Origin: Ignavibacteria bacterium RIFOXYB12_FULL_35_14
GTDB taxonomy: Bacteria; Bacteroidota; Ignavibacteria; Ignavibacteriales; Ignavibacteriaceae
Direction: 5' to 3'
Length of the DNA: 64,000 bases
NCBI GenBank assembly: GCA_001803045.1
Contig: MHAR01000006.1
Location: 1 to 64,000 of the forward strand
A program made the translations under genes and the position numbers. The number at the start of each line of letters is the position of its first letter. Within the stretch, counting starts at the first letter, position 1. The notes under the pieces are model-generated. The model was not told the origin of the DNA and ran no database searches. It saw only the letters and a list, made by a program, of their open reading frames with translations. Positions 38,114-48,034 of this stretch are shown piece by piece.

Positions 38114-38542
38114 GTTTCAATCCACGCGCCCGCATGGGGCGCGACGTAGCTTGTTTCGTTAAAATCTTTGTCTTAAAAAGGTTTCAATCCACGCGCCCGC
38201 ATGGGGCGCGACATAAATACCAAACATTGTTTTGTTAGTATTACCGGTTTCAATCCACGCGCCCGCATGGGGCGCGACGCTGTAAAGATTGCTAACTATT
38301 GCAAAACACCGGTTTCAATCCACGCGCCCGCATGGGGCGCGACAAAATGATATTATCAATACCACCTGACGGTGAACGTTTCAATCCACGCGCCCGCATG
38401 GGGCGCGACGTTATGACACATATGATCATCCACCACTTAATAAAGTTTCAATCCACGCGCCCGCATGGGGCGCGACTAATAAGTTTTGTGTATTTGCTAG
38501 TTGAATCTGAGTTTCAATCCACGCGCCCGCATGGGGCGCGAC
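38114..38542 (-). CRISPR. Type I-C CRISPR array, 7 repeats and 6 spacers
   Basis: Seven identical 32-bp repeats start at 38114, 38181, 38247, 38312, 38378, 38445 and 38511 (plus-strand start GTTTCAATCC, end GGGGCGCGAC); spacers are 35, 34, 33, 34, 35 and 34 nt. In the crRNA sense the repeat begins GTCGCGCCCC and ends GGATTGAAAC, the known type I-C form, so transcription runs on the minus strand, the same way as the cas genes. All repeats appear unmutated, including the last, which suggests recent activity. The ends of the stem GCGCCC/GGGCGC are processed by Cas5c. Confidence 0.97.
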
Positions 38543-38724: not shown

Positions 38725-39015
38725 TTAAATGACAAGCGGGTCTTCAATACTTTGTATTCCTTTTTTTCCATAATGTTCGAGGCGGCGCTGCCAGTTAGAA
38801 CCAAGGAAATAAAATCTCAAACTGTCCTCGTTCGGCTCATAAATTGAAAGTAATATATTTTTTAGTATTTCCCACTGAGCTGGTTTCACATTACACTCGA
38901 AAACTGAATTCTGTACACGTAAACCAAAGTCCAAACAAGTTTCTGCTACTTTGCGCAGTCTCTTTTTTCCGCCCTCGGCTTTTGTGGAAACGTCATAACT
39001 AACAATTACCATCAT
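38725..39015 (-). CDS. cas2: Cas2 (type I-C)
   Basis: 96 residues, ferredoxin fold. Seen: MMVIVSYDVSTKAEGGKKRL (the conserved Asp near residue 8), LDFGLRVQNSVFECN (about 28-42) and LRFYFLGSNWQRRLEHYG (about 66-83). Cas2 holds Cas1 dimers together in the spacer-integration complex. It is 6 nt after cas1 and 182 nt before the array. Confidence 0.95.
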   Translation of the reverse strand: MMVIVSYDVSTKAEGGKKRLRKVAETCLDFGLRVQNSVFECNVKPAQWEILKNILLSIYEPNEDSLRFYFLGSNWQRRLEHYGKKGIQSIEDPLVI

Positions 39016-39021
39016 AGTTTT

Positions 39022-40050
39022 TTACTTTAAATAAAATGGTGGATACTCTTCAATGTCGCCGCGGATATACCGTGCAAGCAATTGTGCTTGGATATGCGGC
39101 AGCAAGCCAATTGTCATTTTTTCACCAAGAAATGGATGAGTGATTTCTTCTTGTTTTCTTTTTTGATATGCTGTTAGCACTTCTTTCCGTGCACTATCAG
39201 ACATTCTTACTTCGCTGGATTCTCTTATTTCAAAATCTTTTTTTGTTACTTGTTTTAAGTTGATGAGATTCAGCATTATTCTATCGCCAAGATATGCACG
39301 GAATTCCTCCATGATGTCTAATGCAAGACTCGGGCGACCTGATCTTATTTGGTGAAGAAAGCCAACCTGCGGATCAAGTCCGGTTGTTTCCACTGCTGAT
39401 CGAACATCATTTGCAATGATCGCATACAAAAAGGATAATAGTGCATTAGCCGGATCGAGCGGCGGGCGCTTTGTTCTTTGTGTAAATGTGAAATCTTCTT
39501 GCTGAGCTGTAATAAGCGAAGACAACACCCCAAAGTACAAAGTTGCACATTCACCCTCGTACCCGCGAAGCTCATTCAGACTTTCTGCGGCATGAATATT
39601 TGTCAATCTTCTTCCCATGGTTTCGGCTGCAAAAAAAACCGAGTCGGAGCAGTTATCCGGATGATTCCTTTGATGACGTAAAAGCAGATGACGATAATTT
39701 GTTACTTTCGCAGCAATTATTGGGCGGGCAATTGAAAGTGACTGTAATTCATTATCAGAAAGGTCATACTGTGCTTTCCGTAAAAGAACATTGCCTTGCT
39801 GCGCACCATACACCCGCGCAAGAAACTTTCCATTTTCCGATAGATAACTTATGCCGACATTATTCTCTGCGCAGAAGGCCATTAGTTGTGGAGTAAGCGC
39901 CTTGAACCCAAAGCATACAATGTTTTCTATTGAATAAATTGGCGCCTGAAATACTTTTTCGTTGTTGATCTCCACTACGAATGTTTCCCGTTCTTTGCGA
40001 ACAAAGGCATCGTCCGAAGTAATGTAAAGTGTGTTAAGATGTTTTTTCAT
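39022..40050 (-). CDS. cas1: Cas1 (type I-C integrase)
   Basis: 342 residues. The N-terminal beta domain (about 1-90) is followed by the alpha-helical catalytic domain. Metal-binding residues are recognisable: the Glu in LRGYEGECATLYFG (about 155-170), His in VGFLHQIRSGRPSLALD (about 222-238) and the Asp/Glu of DIMEEFRA just after. Integrates spacers together with Cas2, with Cas4 trimming the ends. 76 nt separate it from cas4, a gap that contains a perfect 15-bp inverted repeat. Confidence 0.96.
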   Translation of the reverse strand: MKKHLNTLYITSDDAFVRKERETFVVEINNEKVFQAPIYSIENIVCFGFKALTPQLMAFCAENNVGISYLSENGKFLARVYGAQQGNVLLRKAQYDLSDNELQSLSIARPIIAAKVTNYRHLLLRHQRNHPDNCSDSVFFAAETMGRRLTNIHAAESLNELRGYEGECATLYFGVLSSLITAQQEDFTFTQRTKRPPLDPANALLSFLYAIIANDVRSAVETTGLDPQVGFLHQIRSGRPSLALDIMEEFRAYLGDRIMLNLINLKQVTKKDFEIRESSEVRMSDSARKEVLTAYQKRKQEEITHPFLGEKMTIGLLPHIQAQLLARYIRGDIEEYPPFYLK

Positions 40051-40126: not shown

Positions 40127-40780
40127 TCATGCTGTGTATAATCCTGAAATATAATTTTTAAGCTTACGCTTGTTCAATGCTTTGGGCTGGCAAATATCTA
40201 TCAGCGAACAGTTACGGCATTTAGCTGAGTACTCGGCAGTAGGAACAGTTTTACTTGAGACTATTTCTCTAACTGAAGCAATTACTTGTTCGGTTTGGTT
40301 TCTTAATTCATCATCAATTTCTATTGGATTTCTTCGACGGATTTTTCCGTAAAAAAACATTCCCTTGGAAATTTGTGTGCTCAGCATTTCTTCAAGACAA
40401 AGCACTTGAGCACAAAGCTGAACCTTATCGCTAATGTCTTCCTTAGGTTCACCTGACTTGAATTCGACCGGAAGAACTTCTTCGCTGTCATTCCGGTGAA
40501 AGCCGGAATCTCCTTCTTTGTTAATTCTTTTAAATTCAACCACATCGCATCTGCCAACGATGCCGTAGTTAAACGAATGAATTCTGAGACCGCGCACAGT
40601 TTTAACATCACCTCTTGTTTCATAGGTGTCCGTATCAACTTTATCATGAAGAATTTGACCTCGCACAGTAAAAAGATTTTCATTCCAAACATCATCAACA
40701 TGAATCAATCCGCATTGCCTCGGGCAATATATGTAATGCTGCAGTGCGCTGATCAGGATGAAATCGTCTTCAGTGAACAT
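40127..40780 (-). CDS. cas4: Cas4 (CRISPR PAM-selecting nuclease)
   Basis: 217 residues, RecB-like nuclease with iron-sulfur cysteines: CPRQCG (about residues 19-24) at the start and CRNCSLIDICQP (about 188-199) at the end. Nuclease core: GRCDVVEF (about 76-83), PVEFKSGEPK (about 102-111) and VQLCAQVLCLEEML. It trims prespacers and selects the PAM with Cas1-Cas2. Between the two core strands is an extra GDSGFHRNDS, encoded by a GTCATTCCGG-type hairpin inserted in frame (40490-40509), so the loop is longer than usual; the catalytic residues are preserved. Confidence 0.93.
   Translation of the reverse strand: MFTEDDFILISALQHYIYCPRQCGLIHVDDVWNENLFTVRGQILHDKVDTDTYETRGDVKTVRGLRIHSFNYGIVGRCDVVEFKRINKEGDSGFHRNDSEEVLPVEFKSGEPKEDISDKVQLCAQVLCLEEMLSTQISKGMFFYGKIRRRNPIEIDDELRNQTEQVIASVREIVSSKTVPTAEYSAKCRNCSLIDICQPKALNKRKLKNYISGLYTA
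40487..40510. repeat. GTCATTCCGG hairpin inserted in cas4
   Basis: ATTCCGGTGAAAGCCGGAAT (40490-40509) is a hairpin with a 7-bp stem and 6-nt loop, preceded by GTC and followed by C, a dispersed repeat type found in many bacterial genomes between genes. Here it is in frame in cas4, in the loop between two core strands. Confidence 0.75.
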
Positions 40781-40785
40781 ATAAA

Positions 40786-41829
40786 TTATTTCTTCCTGCG
40801 TTTTTTAGTCTTTTTAGCTGGAGCAATTTTCTTTAGTTTTTTAACTGCCTCCTCAAAATGTTTTTCCACTTCACTTGGTTTTTCAAGCAGTTTTTTGTGA
40901 AATTTTTCATATTCTGTCTCTGCTTTTGAAATTGCAGCTTCATGACTAATTGCGCCGGCATGTGTAAGAATTTCGTGTTCGCTTAATTTTAAGAAATCAT
41001 CCAGCTTTTCAATCCAGCCTTTCATGTACATTAACCTTCGGTTTTGTGCCTGGAGTTCAGCAAATTCCAAGTAGGCAGTTACAATCCGGTTAAGTGCATC
41101 TAATTCTTTCTCACTCAAATAATTTTTTGCAATTAAAACATCAGTTTTCTTTGGGGTTTTACCAGACCAGCTTGTTAGACCCATTGATGGAAGTAAAGCA
41201 TCAGCTCGTTTAGCAATTATTTCTGCAGCAGTATGACCGTGAGCAGCCCAATGCACTTTATTTTGAACTGTCGCGAAAAATTTTTGCGATATTTCGGTGT
41301 CTGGATTATAATCTACGCTTGTAGCATATAGATCAAGCACTTTTTTCCAAAACACTTTTTCGGAAGAGCGTATATCACGAATGCGTTCAAGCAGTTCTTC
41401 AAAATATTTTCCACCGCCAAGCTGTTTCATTCGTTCGTCATCAAGAACCAATCCTTTTATTAAATATTCTTTGAGCTGTTCAGTTGCCCAAATTCTGAAT
41501 TGAGTGCCCCGATACGATTTTACCCGGTAGCCAACAGCTATAATTGCATCAAGGTTATAGTAAAGCGTTTTATATTTCTTATCATCTGAGGCAGTTGTAA
41601 AGTATTCCTTGACAACTGAATCTTCTTGTAACTCACGCTCGGTAAATATGTTCTTAATGTGAAGACTGATATTTTGTTTGGTAGTTTGGAAAAGATCGGC
41701 CATTTGAGCTTGTGTAAGCCAAACAGTTTCACCTTTCCGATGGATCGTTCCGACAAGCCGGACTTCAATTCTGCTTTTCTGATCCTCGGTTGTGTAGAGG
41801 ATTATTTGGGAGTTCGGAGATTGGTTCAT
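40786..41829 (-). CDS. RhuM family protein inserted in the cas operon
   Basis: 347 residues. Seen: VWLTQAQMADLFQTTKQNISLHIKNIF (about 36-62), a winged-helix-like region, then LYYNLDAIIAVGYRVKSYRGTQFRIWATEQLKEYL (about 89-123), hallmarks of the RhuM family. The central part (about 150-260) has LDYNPDTEISQKFFATVQNK-type and GHTAAEIIAKRADA blocks; the C-terminus is lysine-rich. RhuM was named from a Salmonella pathogenicity island and its activity is unknown; mobile-element relatives often accompany Bro-N proteins. It stands between cas7 and cas4, where type I-C loci have no gene. The ATG overlaps the stop of the broken Bro-N gene (ATGA). Confidence 0.88.
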   Translation of the reverse strand: MNQSPNSQIILYTTEDQKSRIEVRLVGTIHRKGETVWLTQAQMADLFQTTKQNISLHIKNIFTERELQEDSVVKEYFTTASDDKKYKTLYYNLDAIIAVGYRVKSYRGTQFRIWATEQLKEYLIKGLVLDDERMKQLGGGKYFEELLERIRDIRSSEKVFWKKVLDLYATSVDYNPDTEISQKFFATVQNKVHWAAHGHTAAEIIAKRADALLPSMGLTSWSGKTPKKTDVLIAKNYLSEKELDALNRIVTAYLEFAELQAQNRRLMYMKGWIEKLDDFLKLSEHEILTHAGAISHEAAISKAETEYEKFHKKLLEKPSEVEKHFEEAVKKLKKIAPAKKTKKRRKK

Positions 41830-42165: not shown

Positions 42166-43104
42166 TTAAGAAACATCAACAACTTTAAACGTTTCAGGAA
42201 ATGTTTTGCCATCAAGAAGAATTTCATAATCCGTAAACTCTCTTGCCGGTTTAGTTTCATCGTTTGTGCGTTTCCACGTTACTCTTTCAAACAGTTCATG
42301 TGCTGGTTTGTTGCCGAGAGCATCTTTATGTTTAAACACAACTAGTTTTCTTGTGCTCATAAGACCGCGTGCTGCTGAATGATCGTGATCAAACATTTGT
42401 TGCATTGCATTCCAAAAAATATCAAGATCTTCAGTTGAAAAACCGGTTCCATTTTTTTCATTAGCCAAGTGGGCAGAAATAAAACCGTGTGCACGGTACA
42501 AACCATAAGGTACGGTGTATTTGCGACCAAATGTGCGTTCTTTTTCTAAATCTTTTTCATTTGTTACTGCCATACGCGTAATACTATGCTCTAAAGCAAT
42601 CACTGGTTCAACCGAACGAGCAAATGTGAGTTGAACGGGACCCCGGACTTGTCCACCAGTCTTTCTAAGTTTCTTGTCGTCTACCGATTCGCCAACCTTT
42701 TCTTTATCACTGGTTGCAAGGACAGCACCAAAAGTTCGAATGTCATAAAACTTATTGCACATGTGTTTGCGTGTACTTTCTTCTGCATTCCTCTTTTCTT
42801 CTACTGACTTGATTGTCTTGCCTTTATTTGTTTCATCCCATGATGAAACAATTGCCCTATTCAAAACAGCTTTTTCCCGTACAAAAATCGCCCATGGTGG
42901 TACTGGATTTTCTTCATCTTTTTGTGGATGAGTTATTTGTAAATAGTTCCTTACTTTGCGTTTTAAGCAGACATCTGTTACTAGTCCCCCGCCTGTTTCT
43001 GCATCAATACGTGGTAAGTTTCCAGCATCTGGATCACCATTTGGATTTCCGTCTTTTACATCAAAGAAAAAGACAAAGTCATAGCGATTATTAATAGAAT
43101 TCAT
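42166..43104 (-). CDS. cas7: Cas7c (Csd2) backbone subunit
   Basis: 312 residues, RAMP fold. Seen: FVFFFDVKDGNPNGDPDAGNLPR-type start (residues about 10-30, the Csd2 signature), GGGLVTDVCLKRKVRNYL (about 37-54), FYDIRTFGAVLAT (about 118-130) and RGPVQLTFARSVEPV (about 153-167), then ARGLMSTRKLVVFKH. Multiple copies coat the crRNA in the type I-C Cascade complex. Located 2 nt after cas8c. Confidence 0.96.
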   Translation of the reverse strand: MNSINNRYDFVFFFDVKDGNPNGDPDAGNLPRIDAETGGGLVTDVCLKRKVRNYLQITHPQKDEENPVPPWAIFVREKAVLNRAIVSSWDETNKGKTIKSVEEKRNAEESTRKHMCNKFYDIRTFGAVLATSDKEKVGESVDDKKLRKTGGQVRGPVQLTFARSVEPVIALEHSITRMAVTNEKDLEKERTFGRKYTVPYGLYRAHGFISAHLANEKNGTGFSTEDLDIFWNAMQQMFDHDHSAARGLMSTRKLVVFKHKDALGNKPAHELFERVTWKRTNDETKPAREFTDYEILLDGKTFPETFKVVDVS

Positions 43105-43106
43105 TT

Positions 43107-43514
43107 TTATTCTCCTTTGTTAGAATTAATGGTTGTTTGTTCTAATTCATCAGAATCTTTTTTATTTGTAAAGAAATCCTGCTTTTGATGATAATACCCC
43201 AATGAAAAAAGAGCTTGTTGCTCCATTGACAAATGAGCCGGAATATTTAGTGCTACTAGTTTATCCATTATTTCCCCTTTGAGACTTTCAAAAAATCCTT
43301 TTGACTTTTCAATTTTGCCTAAATGATGTCCATATAATTTTTCCAATAATGGTAAAACACTTATTGGAGAAGATGAAAATGCACCATAAAATCGATCACG
43401 AATCCCGGCATTTGGCTCCTTATAATTATTCGCTGCATTCTGAGCCCTTTCAAGCACTGCGAAAAGTCTACCAAGTAGATAGCCAGGATTAGTATTTGTT
43501 TTATCTAAAGCCAT
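43107..43514 (-). CDS. cas11c: Cas11c small subunit, internal start within cas8c
   Basis: 135 residues in the same frame as the end of cas8c, from an ATG at 43514 (MALDKTNTNPGYLLGRLF). A strong Shine-Dalgarno, AAGGAGATCAC, lies directly before it although this is the middle of a gene. In type I-C systems the small subunit is known to be made by internal translation of cas8c, and this site fits. It would form the belly of the Cascade complex next to Cas8c. Confidence 0.75.
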   Translation of the reverse strand: MALDKTNTNPGYLLGRLFAVLERAQNAANNYKEPNAGIRDRFYGAFSSSPISVLPLLEKLYGHHLGKIEKSKGFFESLKGEIMDKLVALNIPAHLSMEQQALFSLGYYHQKQDFFTNKKDSDELEQTTINSNKGE

Positions 43515-44891
43515 TGTGATCTCCTTTTCATTTGGTTTGTGAATTCTGTTATAACGATTTAAACTTGCTTTAATAATTGATGCACGAGCACGATTAACAT
43601 TTTGCTCGGCACGAATTCTTCTAATACATTGTTGAATTAATGTTTGAGGATATGGTGTCCCATCAATAATACTTTCAATAACTTTGCTGGTTAAGTTTGG
43701 GGGCACATTTTCCATTTTATATTGCAATGCAGTAGAAGAAAGTATCTGGTAGAGCGAAAGTTTTTCTGGTTCGTTCGGACCGTGGATAATTTTAAAATCA
43801 TCAAAATGTTTTACAATATTTCGTCCGAATTCTTCTACTGAAGGTGTTTTCCAGAAGCGAACAGAAATTCTTGCTGCATTTGGTGCAAGTCCCAAAACAT
43901 AAAAATGATTATTCTTTTCTCTTGGTAATTGCCCGGTAAAAACAGCATCATAAAGTGAGTTTATAACTTTAACACCTTTATCAGGATCATCCTCTTTTGC
44001 TGATTGAGATGCGATTACCCAGGAAAAAATTTCTTCGGGATTAATAACCGTTGATGTTTTCTCAGACCAAAAAAGAACTGTTGTATCAGAAATAATTTTT
44101 TTATTAGTTGAAGAACTAATAAGATGCTTAAGAGCGGTACTATAAGCAGCTTCTGCTTTCATAGATATAGGTGCATTATACGCCTTTTCTTTTCCATAAG
44201 AATCGAAACCAGAGTTTACTTGAAAGGATACAAGTCTAGCGTTACTTTTTGATCCTATAATAGATGTTGGAGTATGAAGTCGTGCAATTGGACCTCTTTT
44301 ACCTGTAATTAAGCAAGCTGCTATAATTTTTTCACTATCTTCATCATTTTGATCTTCAGCAAAAAGTGATTTTTGATATGTCGCAACTGATTCTCTCTGC
44401 GGAACAAGTTCTGAATCTCCATCTACCCTAAAGGTTAAATTGCAACCGGGAATTCTTGAACAGTCCTCCCAATTTTGATGTTTTTTCACTTCAACAATCT
44501 GATTCGTTTCATAAAAAGATAAAACCGCATTTACTCCTTTATCTTCTTTCAATTCTTCTGGAAGAGATTTAATCTTATCAACAAAAGTTTGATTTTGTTT
44601 TCTAGCCATTTCAATCGACTTGGTAGATGATTTTTTAGGGTGTGCGAGAACAAAACCATAATGATCCCATAACAGAAAAGCAGTTTGCCATGAATTGGTA
44701 CCAGACCGTCCCACAGATTTTGGTAAAAGGAATTGTTTACCCTTTCTATTTTCTTTCAAATCTACTAAATCAATAAACCTTCCTTCTTTATTAATGATGA
44801 TAACAAACTTGATTTCTTTAATCTCGAATCCTTCCTGTGGTAGTGTGTCCTTTTTTCTTTGATAATATTCATACAATGCTTGTAGTATCAT
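43107..44891 (-). CDS. cas8c: Cas8c (Csd1) large subunit
   Basis: 594 residues, the usual Csd1 length. Starts MILQALYEYYQRKKD, typical of the family, and contains GRSGTNSWQTAFLLWDHYG-like (about 73-91), ACLITGKRGPIARLHTPT (about 208-225), FYVLGLAPNAARISVRFW (about 345-362), and the C-terminal helical part that is also made separately as Cas11c. Cas8c recognises the PAM. Its start overlaps the cas5c stop (ATGA), so the two are coupled. Confidence 0.95.
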   Translation of the reverse strand: MILQALYEYYQRKKDTLPQEGFEIKEIKFVIIINKEGRFIDLVDLKENRKGKQFLLPKSVGRSGTNSWQTAFLLWDHYGFVLAHPKKSSTKSIEMARKQNQTFVDKIKSLPEELKEDKGVNAVLSFYETNQIVEVKKHQNWEDCSRIPGCNLTFRVDGDSELVPQRESVATYQKSLFAEDQNDEDSEKIIAACLITGKRGPIARLHTPTSIIGSKSNARLVSFQVNSGFDSYGKEKAYNAPISMKAEAAYSTALKHLISSSTNKKIISDTTVLFWSEKTSTVINPEEIFSWVIASQSAKEDDPDKGVKVINSLYDAVFTGQLPREKNNHFYVLGLAPNAARISVRFWKTPSVEEFGRNIVKHFDDFKIIHGPNEPEKLSLYQILSSTALQYKMENVPPNLTSKVIESIIDGTPYPQTLIQQCIRRIRAEQNVNRARASIIKASLNRYNRIHKPNEKEITMALDKTNTNPGYLLGRLFAVLERAQNAANNYKEPNAGIRDRFYGAFSSSPISVLPLLEKLYGHHLGKIEKSKGFFESLKGEIMDKLVALNIPAHLSMEQQALFSLGYYHQKQDFFTNKKDSDELEQTTINSNKGE

Positions 44892-45649
44892 CTTCGTATC
44901 TCCTCACTTTTTATCGGTGGGATTTTGACAACACCACTTTCAATCCTTGCTTGGAAGAACATTGGTTTTGGGTCGTTCAAATCTGTAAAGTCCATGTCAA
45001 AAAGCATAAAACCAAGTTCTCTTGTTTCATCAATTGGGGTTACGGGTTCTTCTTCGGGATTTTTAATAAAACGGAAATTGCAGCTAAATTCACGTGTCCC
45101 AAAATAAGGTTGATTAAAGCACTGTCCTTTTGAAGCTCTTCTTTCAAAGATTGCCAGATATTTCCCCGGAGTTTCATCTGTGCGTTCTGTTTCTTGTTTT
45201 TCTTCCCAAGCTTTTATTTCTTCGAGCATAAAATCTTTTTCTTCAGGATCCCATAAATATTCAGGGACAATTGAATGTTTATTATTTTTTCTTTGCTCAA
45301 TGGGTATATACTCTAAGTCGGCAAAGAAACGATACCTTACATCACGCAGGAAATATCCGGCGCGCTGCTGACGATTATCTTCAATCAGTATTCCATTGCT
45401 TCGTGGACTCATAATTGCACCAACTTCATTTCGCCGGACTGAGATCCATTTTATAGGATTAAGTATTTCAATCTTTGTCGGATGCCATCGAATTGCAGGC
45501 TTCCAAAAAATCGATTCAAAAACAGCGCGTACTGATGAAGGTGTTGGGACATCATAGCTTACTCTCTCGACTTTCATTTCGGGTCGGGTAAAGCAGGCAT
45601 AATCACCCCAAACCTCAAGACAAAAAGGTTTGTGTTTTAAATTATTCAT
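44888..45649 (-). CDS. cas5: Cas5c (Cas5d) crRNA-processing subunit
   Basis: 253 residues. Seen: CLEVWGDYACFTRPEMKVERVSY-type start (residues about 10-30), TPSSVRAVFESIFWKPAIRW (about 36-55), LNPIKWISVRRNEV (about 62-75), GILIEDNRQQRAGYFLRDVRY (about 86-106) and CFNQPYFGTREFSCNF (about 178-193). In type I-C this protein replaces Cas6 and cuts the repeat RNA to leave the short 5' handle. It is 54 nt after cas3. Confidence 0.95.
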   Translation of the reverse strand: MNNLKHKPFCLEVWGDYACFTRPEMKVERVSYDVPTPSSVRAVFESIFWKPAIRWHPTKIEILNPIKWISVRRNEVGAIMSPRSNGILIEDNRQQRAGYFLRDVRYRFFADLEYIPIEQRKNNKHSIVPEYLWDPEEKDFMLEEIKAWEEKQETERTDETPGKYLAIFERRASKGQCFNQPYFGTREFSCNFRFIKNPEEEPVTPIDETRELGFMLFDMDFTDLNDPKPMFFQARIESGVVKIPPIKSEEIRR

Positions 45650-45703: not shown

Positions 45704-48034
45704 TCAGACAACGCCATTTCCAATTATCCAATCGCTTTCATTTCCTAATAATCCCAAACCTGGTTTATAAAGAATTGAATCACTTTGTATCCAATAACCG
45801 TGAATTGGTTCGATATAATTATTTTTTTGAATCCTGTTAAACATATTATTAGGATTTTTTTCATCATAAGGAACATTTACAATGAAACGCTGAAGTTTTC
45901 TGATCAAATTTTTTGATGGTCCAGCATATTTTAACTTTTCTATTAAATCAAAACTGTTACTTCCTGTGTTTTTGTTTTCATACCAAACGACAATACTTTT
46001 CTGAGCCATAGAGTCTATTAAGTTGAACTTTTGTGCAAATGTGCGAAATTGAAATGTAAAATCAGAAGCATCTTTTACTAAGTGGTTGTAGAATTCCGGT
46101 TCATCAAAAGTATTTAGATTTGTATATAAATATTTAAAGTAATCGGTATAAAGCCTTGGCGTTAATTCTTGATAAGATTGATTACGAATAATTGCCTTAC
46201 ATGCATCTTCACCTTTTCTTAATAAACCCGGTGGAGCTTGTTTTGGTGGATTGAATACAACAACATTTCCAATGTTTGGAAATAAATTATTCTCTCTGTT
46301 ACACCTTCCTGCAGCTTGAGCGATTGAATCAAGTCCTGCTAAAGCACGATAAACAACAGGGAAATCTATATCAACACCCGCTTCAACAAGCTGTGTGCTG
46401 ATAACTTTAATCGGTTCTCTATTTTTTAGTTTTGTTTTTATTTCAGAAATAATCTCGCTTCTTTCCTCACCGCACATAAATGCTGAAAGATGAACAGTGC
46501 CTTCCGGCATTAATGAATGAAGCTGTCTGCAATCATTTTTTGTATTTACAACACACAATACTTGATCAAAAGTTTTAAGTTCTTCAGCAATTTCTTCCCA
46601 ATTTTTTCGTTTATTTAGGTCGTCAGGAAATTTTATATCAACCCGTTTAAAAACTTTAGTGAGTGAATCTGGATCATCTATAATGTTTGTTATGTTCGTT
46701 AATCCTTCAAAAGAATTTGGTTCAATCCCAATCTTGCCTATTAAAGCAGGTTGAGTTGCTGTCATCATTACAACTGTTACTCCGAAATAATCGACCAAAC
46801 CTTTTAATACAGAAAGAATTGGCTTTAAGTATTCGGGTGGAAGCATTTGTGCTTCATCAAGGATGATAATGCTGTTTGTGATATTATGAAGTTTTCTGCA
46901 GGCAGAAGTTCTGTTGGCAAATAATGATTCGAACAACTGAACATTCGTTGTAACTATTATCGGTGCATCCCAGTTTTCAGCTGCCAAACGATTTTTACTT
47001 GATTCATTTTCGGGATCAAGATTACTATGATGTTCAACAACCTGATTTTCACCAAACAAATACTTTCCAATTTTCTTTCTTTGCTCTATCTCATCATTAT
47101 TGTCAGTACCATATTTAAATACTTTAGCAGTTTGTTCTATAATGCTTGTATAAGGGATTGCCATTATTATCCGCTTCTTATCATGCTTCAAAGCGTGATT
47201 TAGTGCGAATGCCATTGACGAAAGAGTTTTGCCTCCACCAGTAGGTACATTCAGAGAGAAAAACCCGGGTGGAAGACTTGCTTTGTTTCTGCACTGCTCA
47301 AGTATTTCGTTTCTTTTCTTATTTAATTCACTATCCGATTTTTTCTCTGTCATATAATTATCGAAAAGTTCTTTCAACTCAGAAAAAGAACGATAACCAC
47401 CCCGCCCTTTTTCATCCATATATTTCTCGGTATCAAGAAAGTCGGCATCAACAAGACAGGAAAAAAGCATTCTTACCCAAAGATGTAATTGTTCGTTTGA
47501 AGATTCATTTATTTTGTTTGAATCTTTATTTATAAAAACAGATGGAATTGTTTTTGGAATTGGCTTTTCAAGAAATTGTTTTGTCTCAGGTATGTTTTTT
47601 ATTATTTCAATATCTACAGTATTCAATTTACTATCTTCACCTAATAAACGAGTATCAAGATGAGCATACCAATCCGGTAATCCTGCATGGTGTCCTCCAA
47701 TCACATAAGCTAAAAGTTTTGCAGCAGGTGAATCATTAAATTTTACGAATGGCAAGACAGCACCAGCCGTACTATGGTTTGGTCTGTTATTGCTTTCTTC
47801 GATGTGTGCTTCAGGATCAAAACCAGATTTACGGCAAAGATATTTTTGCCATGCAGGAAGGAATTTTCCGAGGTCGTGCCAAAAGCCGACTAACTCGCCC
47901 CAATCTTTGTTTCCAAATTCTGAAGCAAAAGTACCTGCTTTATTTGCAGTATCATTAAGATGATCTACTAAGAAGTGTGGCTCTGCCCATGAACCATTCT
48001 CTTCTTGTTTTACATGCGCTATAAACTCTTTCAT
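45704..48034 (-). CDS. cas3: Cas3 helicase-nuclease
   Basis: 776 residues. N-terminal HD nuclease: FWHDLGKFLPAWQ (about residues 51-63), IEESNNRPNHSTAGA and VIGGHHAGLPDW (about 111-122). SF2 helicase: Walker A VPTGGGKTLSSM (about 262-273), DEAQ box ILDEAQMLPPEY (about 400-411), MTATQP (about 436), VEAGVDID (about 553-560) and motif VI IAQAAGRCNRE (about 572-582). It unwinds and degrades target DNA recruited by Cascade. First gene of the operon. An AAGGAG site lies 24 nt before the ATG, rather far, and AGAGATAGAG is closer. Confidence 0.96.
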   Translation of the reverse strand: MKEFIAHVKQEENGSWAEPHFLVDHLNDTANKAGTFASEFGNKDWGELVGFWHDLGKFLPAWQKYLCRKSGFDPEAHIEESNNRPNHSTAGAVLPFVKFNDSPAAKLLAYVIGGHHAGLPDWYAHLDTRLLGEDSKLNTVDIEIIKNIPETKQFLEKPIPKTIPSVFINKDSNKINESSNEQLHLWVRMLFSCLVDADFLDTEKYMDEKGRGGYRSFSELKELFDNYMTEKKSDSELNKKRNEILEQCRNKASLPPGFFSLNVPTGGGKTLSSMAFALNHALKHDKKRIIMAIPYTSIIEQTAKVFKYGTDNNDEIEQRKKIGKYLFGENQVVEHHSNLDPENESSKNRLAAENWDAPIIVTTNVQLFESLFANRTSACRKLHNITNSIIILDEAQMLPPEYLKPILSVLKGLVDYFGVTVVMMTATQPALIGKIGIEPNSFEGLTNITNIIDDPDSLTKVFKRVDIKFPDDLNKRKNWEEIAEELKTFDQVLCVVNTKNDCRQLHSLMPEGTVHLSAFMCGEERSEIISEIKTKLKNREPIKVISTQLVEAGVDIDFPVVYRALAGLDSIAQAAGRCNRENNLFPNIGNVVVFNPPKQAPPGLLRKGEDACKAIIRNQSYQELTPRLYTDYFKYLYTNLNTFDEPEFYNHLVKDASDFTFQFRTFAQKFNLIDSMAQKSIVVWYENKNTGSNSFDLIEKLKYAGPSKNLIRKLQRFIVNVPYDEKNPNNMFNRIQKNNYIEPIHGYWIQSDSILYKPGLGLLGNESDWIIGNGVV

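Follow-up and report, generated by a model that had tools for sequence, protein, structure and literature searches.

The type I-C cas4 gene studied here very probably carries a short palindromic repeat of the CGTC-1 type, inserted in frame at the codons for a β-hairpin tip and kept as a near-neutral change in a protein that would still fold and work. The gene lies in a stretch of 64,000 nucleotides from Ignavibacteria bacterium RIFOXYB12_FULL_35_14, called the window below. In the proposed explanation, a CGTC-1 type repetitive element (REP; dRS3/RPE-6 superfamily) would have entered the codons for the hairpin tip that joins the strands carrying the catalytic GxxD and ExK motifs. The frame would have been kept because the net gain is 30 nt, and the open minus-strand frame of the element would have supplied DSGFHRND, flanked by a single further residue at either end. 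The tip is predicted to be a loop that is disordered and varies in length, and along the strands it lies well away from the metal-binding residues; the protein would therefore fold and work, and the insertion could have persisted as near-neutral.

The in-frame insert in cas4

The gene, the insert and the repeat within it are as follows.

40127-40780, minus strand: cas4, type I-C, 217 aa (TIGR00372, 126.8 bits against a cut-off of 65; PF01930, 88.1 bits), frame intact, motif residues invariant across 71 homologues
40484-40513, minus strand: in-frame insert of 30 nt, residues 90-99 (GDSGFHRNDS), from alignment with 11 close homologues; a loop in the structural model, with pLDDT below 50 at residues 91-97
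40486-40510, plus strand: CGTC-1 REP, with the TGTC tag at 40486-40489, the GAAA loop at 40498-40501 and the tail from 40510
40490-40497/40502-40509, plus strand: stem of the REP in cas4, 8 bp with one G.U pair, from sequence and folding

The sequence GTCATTCCGGTGAAAGCCGGAATC is found at 40487-40510 of the plus strand, within the minus-strand cas4, and its minus-strand reading, DSGFHRND, forms the core of GDSGFHRNDS. Eleven homologues from the order of the host, 69-79% identical, were aligned with the protein. Ten of these lack the insert: in them a short linker alone joins DVVEF to PVEFK (or PVEYK), and the window protein exceeds them there by exactly 10 residues. The alignment thus confirms the claim of the first-pass annotation that an in-frame repeat encodes the ten residues GDSGFHRNDS between DVVEF and PVEFK of Cas4. 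Its wider interpretation held in part: a translated repeat in a Cas4 that should still work is supported, and the concern that the loop lies near the nuclease site is not.

In this position the eleventh homologue, the Cas4 of G027 (L006:1501-2172), has an insert of 18 residues that is unrelated in sequence. The DNA of that insert includes a perfect palindrome, AATAATTCCGGAATTATT. The only genome of the same genus has no cas4, and the nearest homologue is too diverged to reveal an empty site.

Structure and class of the repeat

The element in cas4 has the layout TGTC-ATTCCGGT-GAAA-GCCGGAAT, in which ATTCCGGT and GCCGGAAT pair as the stem; the plus strand folds into the 8-bp hairpin at -11.3 kcal/mol (z -2.5). 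CGTC-1 REPs are defined by a CGTC tag at the end, of which TGTC and CCTC are frequent variants, an 8-bp stem beginning with AT and a 4-nt loop, and they end in a short unpaired tail that is mostly CCA; they often form head-head dimers, which is a tendency and not a requirement (PMC3733652). Neisserial dRS3 and rickettsial RPE-6 belong to the CGTC-1 superfamily (Di Nocera et al. 2013, PMC3733652).

The cas4 element has the TGTC variant of the tag, a stem of 8 bp starting with AT and a 4-nt loop, and it belongs to a dispersed family with 91 copies. It shares these traits with the CGTC-1 REPs of PMC3733652, together with a mostly intergenic distribution and the habit that some copies are translated in frame within genes. 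It differs from them in its tail, CTCC instead of CCA, and in the very low copy number in its host, where only two near-consensus copies occur. Copies in related genomes end mostly in CCA, CTA, CTC and similar tails. GTCATTCCGGTGAAAGCCGGAATC is present once in the window with up to 3 mismatches allowed, and no head-head dimer of the element was seen there. The stem carries a paired change from C-G to G-C that is also present in other copies, and the element is 1 base different from an intergenic copy, GTCATTCCGGCGAAAGCCGGAATC, in another genome (G047). Dinucleotide shuffles gave no match to the full 27-nt string with up to 3 mismatches; the shorter 10-mer GTCATTCCGG alone is not significant, being present in 11 of 100 shuffles. 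The main text of PMC3733652 makes no mention of Cas4 or Ignavibacterium.

Copies in the host family and the host genome

When 61 host-family genomes were searched with the pattern GTCATTCCSGYGAAAGCSGGAATC, one mismatch allowed, 91 distinct copies came to light in 27 of them, and the reversed control pattern gave none. Most copies have no ORF across them (no reading frame of at least 80 codons crossing the copy) or lie just ahead of a likely gene start. The earlier statement that this repeat is normally seen between genes therefore applies to the family. The host genome itself has only two near-consensus copies, both in frame within genes, and a third, decayed copy that is intergenic. A tally of intragenic copies from the pattern matches revealed that few are translated within genes across the family, namely those in cas4, L021, L163 and L155, and in the less clear ORFs L195 and L196. 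Both near-consensus copies of the host belong to this set.

In two genera, a C-terminal secretion sorting domain contains the same REP in frame, at corresponding positions (L021:1501-1524 and L163:1501-1524). In L021, the Pfam domain Por_Secre_tail spans both sides of the REP insert. An ORF for an Eco57I-type methylase (L155:639-3023) contains three CGTC-1 copies, which are read in different frames. A looser related palindrome is situated in frame in an ORF of the host genome for a thiamine-diphosphate oxidoreductase, similar to indolepyruvate ferredoxin oxidoreductase (L031:1501-1533).

Mobilisation by a resident REP-associated transposase was considered and rejected: of the nine matches to Y1 transposases in the host, none is flanked by a cas4-type element. 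One transposase gene of the REP-associated type is located between GTAG-tagged palindromes (L052:1300-2120), and it is the only one of the nine Y1 matches flanked by elements of the GTAG type. The stem of its downstream palindrome ends in GGTCATTCC, of which GTCATTCC is common to the CGTC element. The element is presumably mobile. No transposase is known for CGTC elements, and its arrival in one discrete step is therefore an inference.

Position of the loop and comparison with other Cas4 proteins

The AlphaFold model of the window Cas4 has a mean pLDDT of 89. The strands at residues 74-85 and 100-108 are well modelled, and the insert is disordered between them. By chain distance in the model the insert lies 11 residues beyond D79 at its start and 7 short of E106 at its end, and it is therefore predicted to be the far, disordered tip of the β-hairpin.

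The closest solved structure by fold is 8d3l, a type I-C Cas4-Cas1-Cas2 complex (TM 0.87, 42% identity). We take its Cas4 to be the type I-C protein from B. halodurans. It has the fold, the motif residues and the loop length at the insertion site in common with the window Cas4 (D-to-K spacing of 29 against 30 residues), whereas its loop, VQDSEGIELSGVSGSYKAF, is unlike the translation of the CGTC-1 REP. Acting within Cas4-Cas1-Cas2, the B. halodurans type I-C protein cuts PAM ends precisely as it processes prespacers (PMC6519985). Because an active type I-C Cas4 has an equally long loop, and the insert is modelled at the disordered tip, the concern over a loop close to the nuclease site appears weakened.

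Among 79 distinct Cas4 loops, the most frequent D-to-K spacing is 20 residues, the shortest 16 and the longest 53. The earlier reading had been staked on other Cas4 proteins lacking the same loop. For sequence this stood, as none of the loop inserts in these other proteins shares sequence with that of the window. For length and site it did not, since loops as long or longer occur at this position, some of them derived from other repeats. In L104, L119 and L124, from Kiritimatiellota-type genomes, the extra loop residues are encoded in frame by an array with a heptamer period, (TYTNARA)n. For L104 and L124, the contig with the cas genes has further arrays of this kind, several of which lie close to where two cas genes meet, and searches with this pattern found few elsewhere in the genomes. 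The three inserts may go back to a single event in a common ancestor and are therefore treated as one or a few cases. The long loops of L081, L084 and L091 contain no dispersed repeat. An inverted repeat in the loops of L084 and L091 was considered as another dispersed REP and discarded, the full palindrome being found nowhere else in those genomes.

A broader reading is that unrelated extragenic repeats have been taken up repeatedly, in different phyla, by the hairpin tip that links the catalytic strands of Cas4 (the CGTC-1 REP here, the heptamer arrays in the Kiritimatiellota-type genomes), so that intergenic repeats would be a source of new loops. We regard this as rather unlikely. If it were true, repeat-derived loops could diversify the seating of Cas4 on Cas1-Cas2 and on prespacer DNA.

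Operon context and integrity of Cas4

The gene is part of a type I-C CRISPR-Cas operon that is complete and lies on the minus strand, in the order cas3, cas5c, cas8c, cas7, RhuM-family gene, cas4, cas1, cas2 and array. Apart from cas4, its features are these.

45704-48034, minus strand: cas3, HD and helicase (TIGR01596, TIGR01587)
44888-45649, minus strand: cas5c (TIGR01876)
43107-44891, minus strand: cas8c (Csd1; TIGR01863)
42166-43104, minus strand: cas7 (Csd2; TIGR02589)
40786-41829, minus strand: RhuM-family gene between cas7 and cas4 (PF13310, 366.5 bits)
39022-40050, minus strand: cas1, type I-C Cas1c (TIGR03640, 466 bits)
38725-39015, minus strand: cas2 (PF09827, TIGR01573)
38114-38542, minus strand: CRISPR array of 7 identical 32-nt repeats and 6 spacers of 33-35 nt

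Relatives of the RhuM-family gene are found upstream of cas4 in L062, L065, L075 and L076, and such I-C operons may therefore have acquired it more than once, as a passenger or an accessory. The six spacer cores, compared with viral contigs in order to read the PAM, have no exact match there.

The location of a hairpin inside an adaptation operon, and the recurrence of long loops in Cas4, would be consistent with an insert kept for a function, either as an mRNA hairpin that tunes cas4-cas1-cas2 expression or as a peptide that alters contacts with Cas1-Cas2 or DNA. However, the mRNA strand folds with modest stability (-9.9 kcal/mol, z -1.9), the inserts of other Cas4 proteins have no sequence in common with this one, and the model shows a disordered loop. 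A retained function is thus improbable.

Marginally less probable again is that the insertion damaged Cas4, with PAM-correct spacer selection lost and the gene now a young pseudogene. Ten foreign residues between two catalytic strands and a short array of six spacers would agree with such damage. However, the catalytic and motif residues H45, D79, E106, K108, Q121 and Q125 are all kept, as are the four conserved cysteines (19, 188, 191 and 197) and every column that is invariant in 71 Cas4 proteins, and the reading frame has no stop and no frameshift. The terminal branch of the window Cas4 is not lengthened (0.17 against a median of 0.16) in a tree built without the inserts, and the solved type I-C protein has a loop of the same length. 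The values for cas4 (dN about 0.14-0.25, dS at least 1.9 or saturated) show, at the level of sequence, constraint over the whole divergence, and such rates give no date for the insertion. The cas operon and the array around cas4 are intact. Assignment to type I-C Cas4 follows from the Cas4 profile, the RecB-type motifs, the four cysteines and the position beside cas1c-cas2 of an I-C operon. The retained residues support the earlier suggestion that this Cas4 may still work. Judged from sequence and model, it is most likely intact as an enzyme, and its nuclease activity is presumably retained.

That the loop grew by ordinary indels and is palindromic by chance, with no mobile element involved, is scarcely credible and already close to refuted: Cas4 loops do vary greatly in length, and those of L081, L084 and L091 are long with no dispersed repeat, but shuffles put the chance expectation of matching this family-wide repeat at zero, the reversed control is empty in all 61 genomes, and the stem shares its paired C-G to G-C change with other copies.

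Relation to known elements and implications

A near-neutral CGTC-1 insertion in cas4 resembles the Rickettsia palindromic elements (RPEs), which are also palindromic repeats with an open frame that lie in frame in a protein gene and add a peptide. As with RPEs, sequence comparison reveals an element translated in frame in a conserved protein and absent from its homologues. Unlike the reduced intracellular hosts of RPEs, the host here has a 4.1-Mb genome of the Ignavibacteriales type, and one short element, encoding 10 residues, is involved. In-frame insertions are already on record for REPs of the CGTC and GTAG types as well as for rickettsial RPEs, and the cas4 case adds one. No report of a REP insert in Cas4 was found in the literature searched, of which coverage was partial.

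With this case, a CRISPR adaptation nuclease would join the REP-decorated proteins, and the RPE-like phenomenon would extend to Ignavibacteriales-type bacteria. The finding also points to one loop of Cas4 at which inserts are tolerated and several unrelated ones have arisen naturally, which may be of practical use for tagging Cas4 or for interpreting Cas4 structures.
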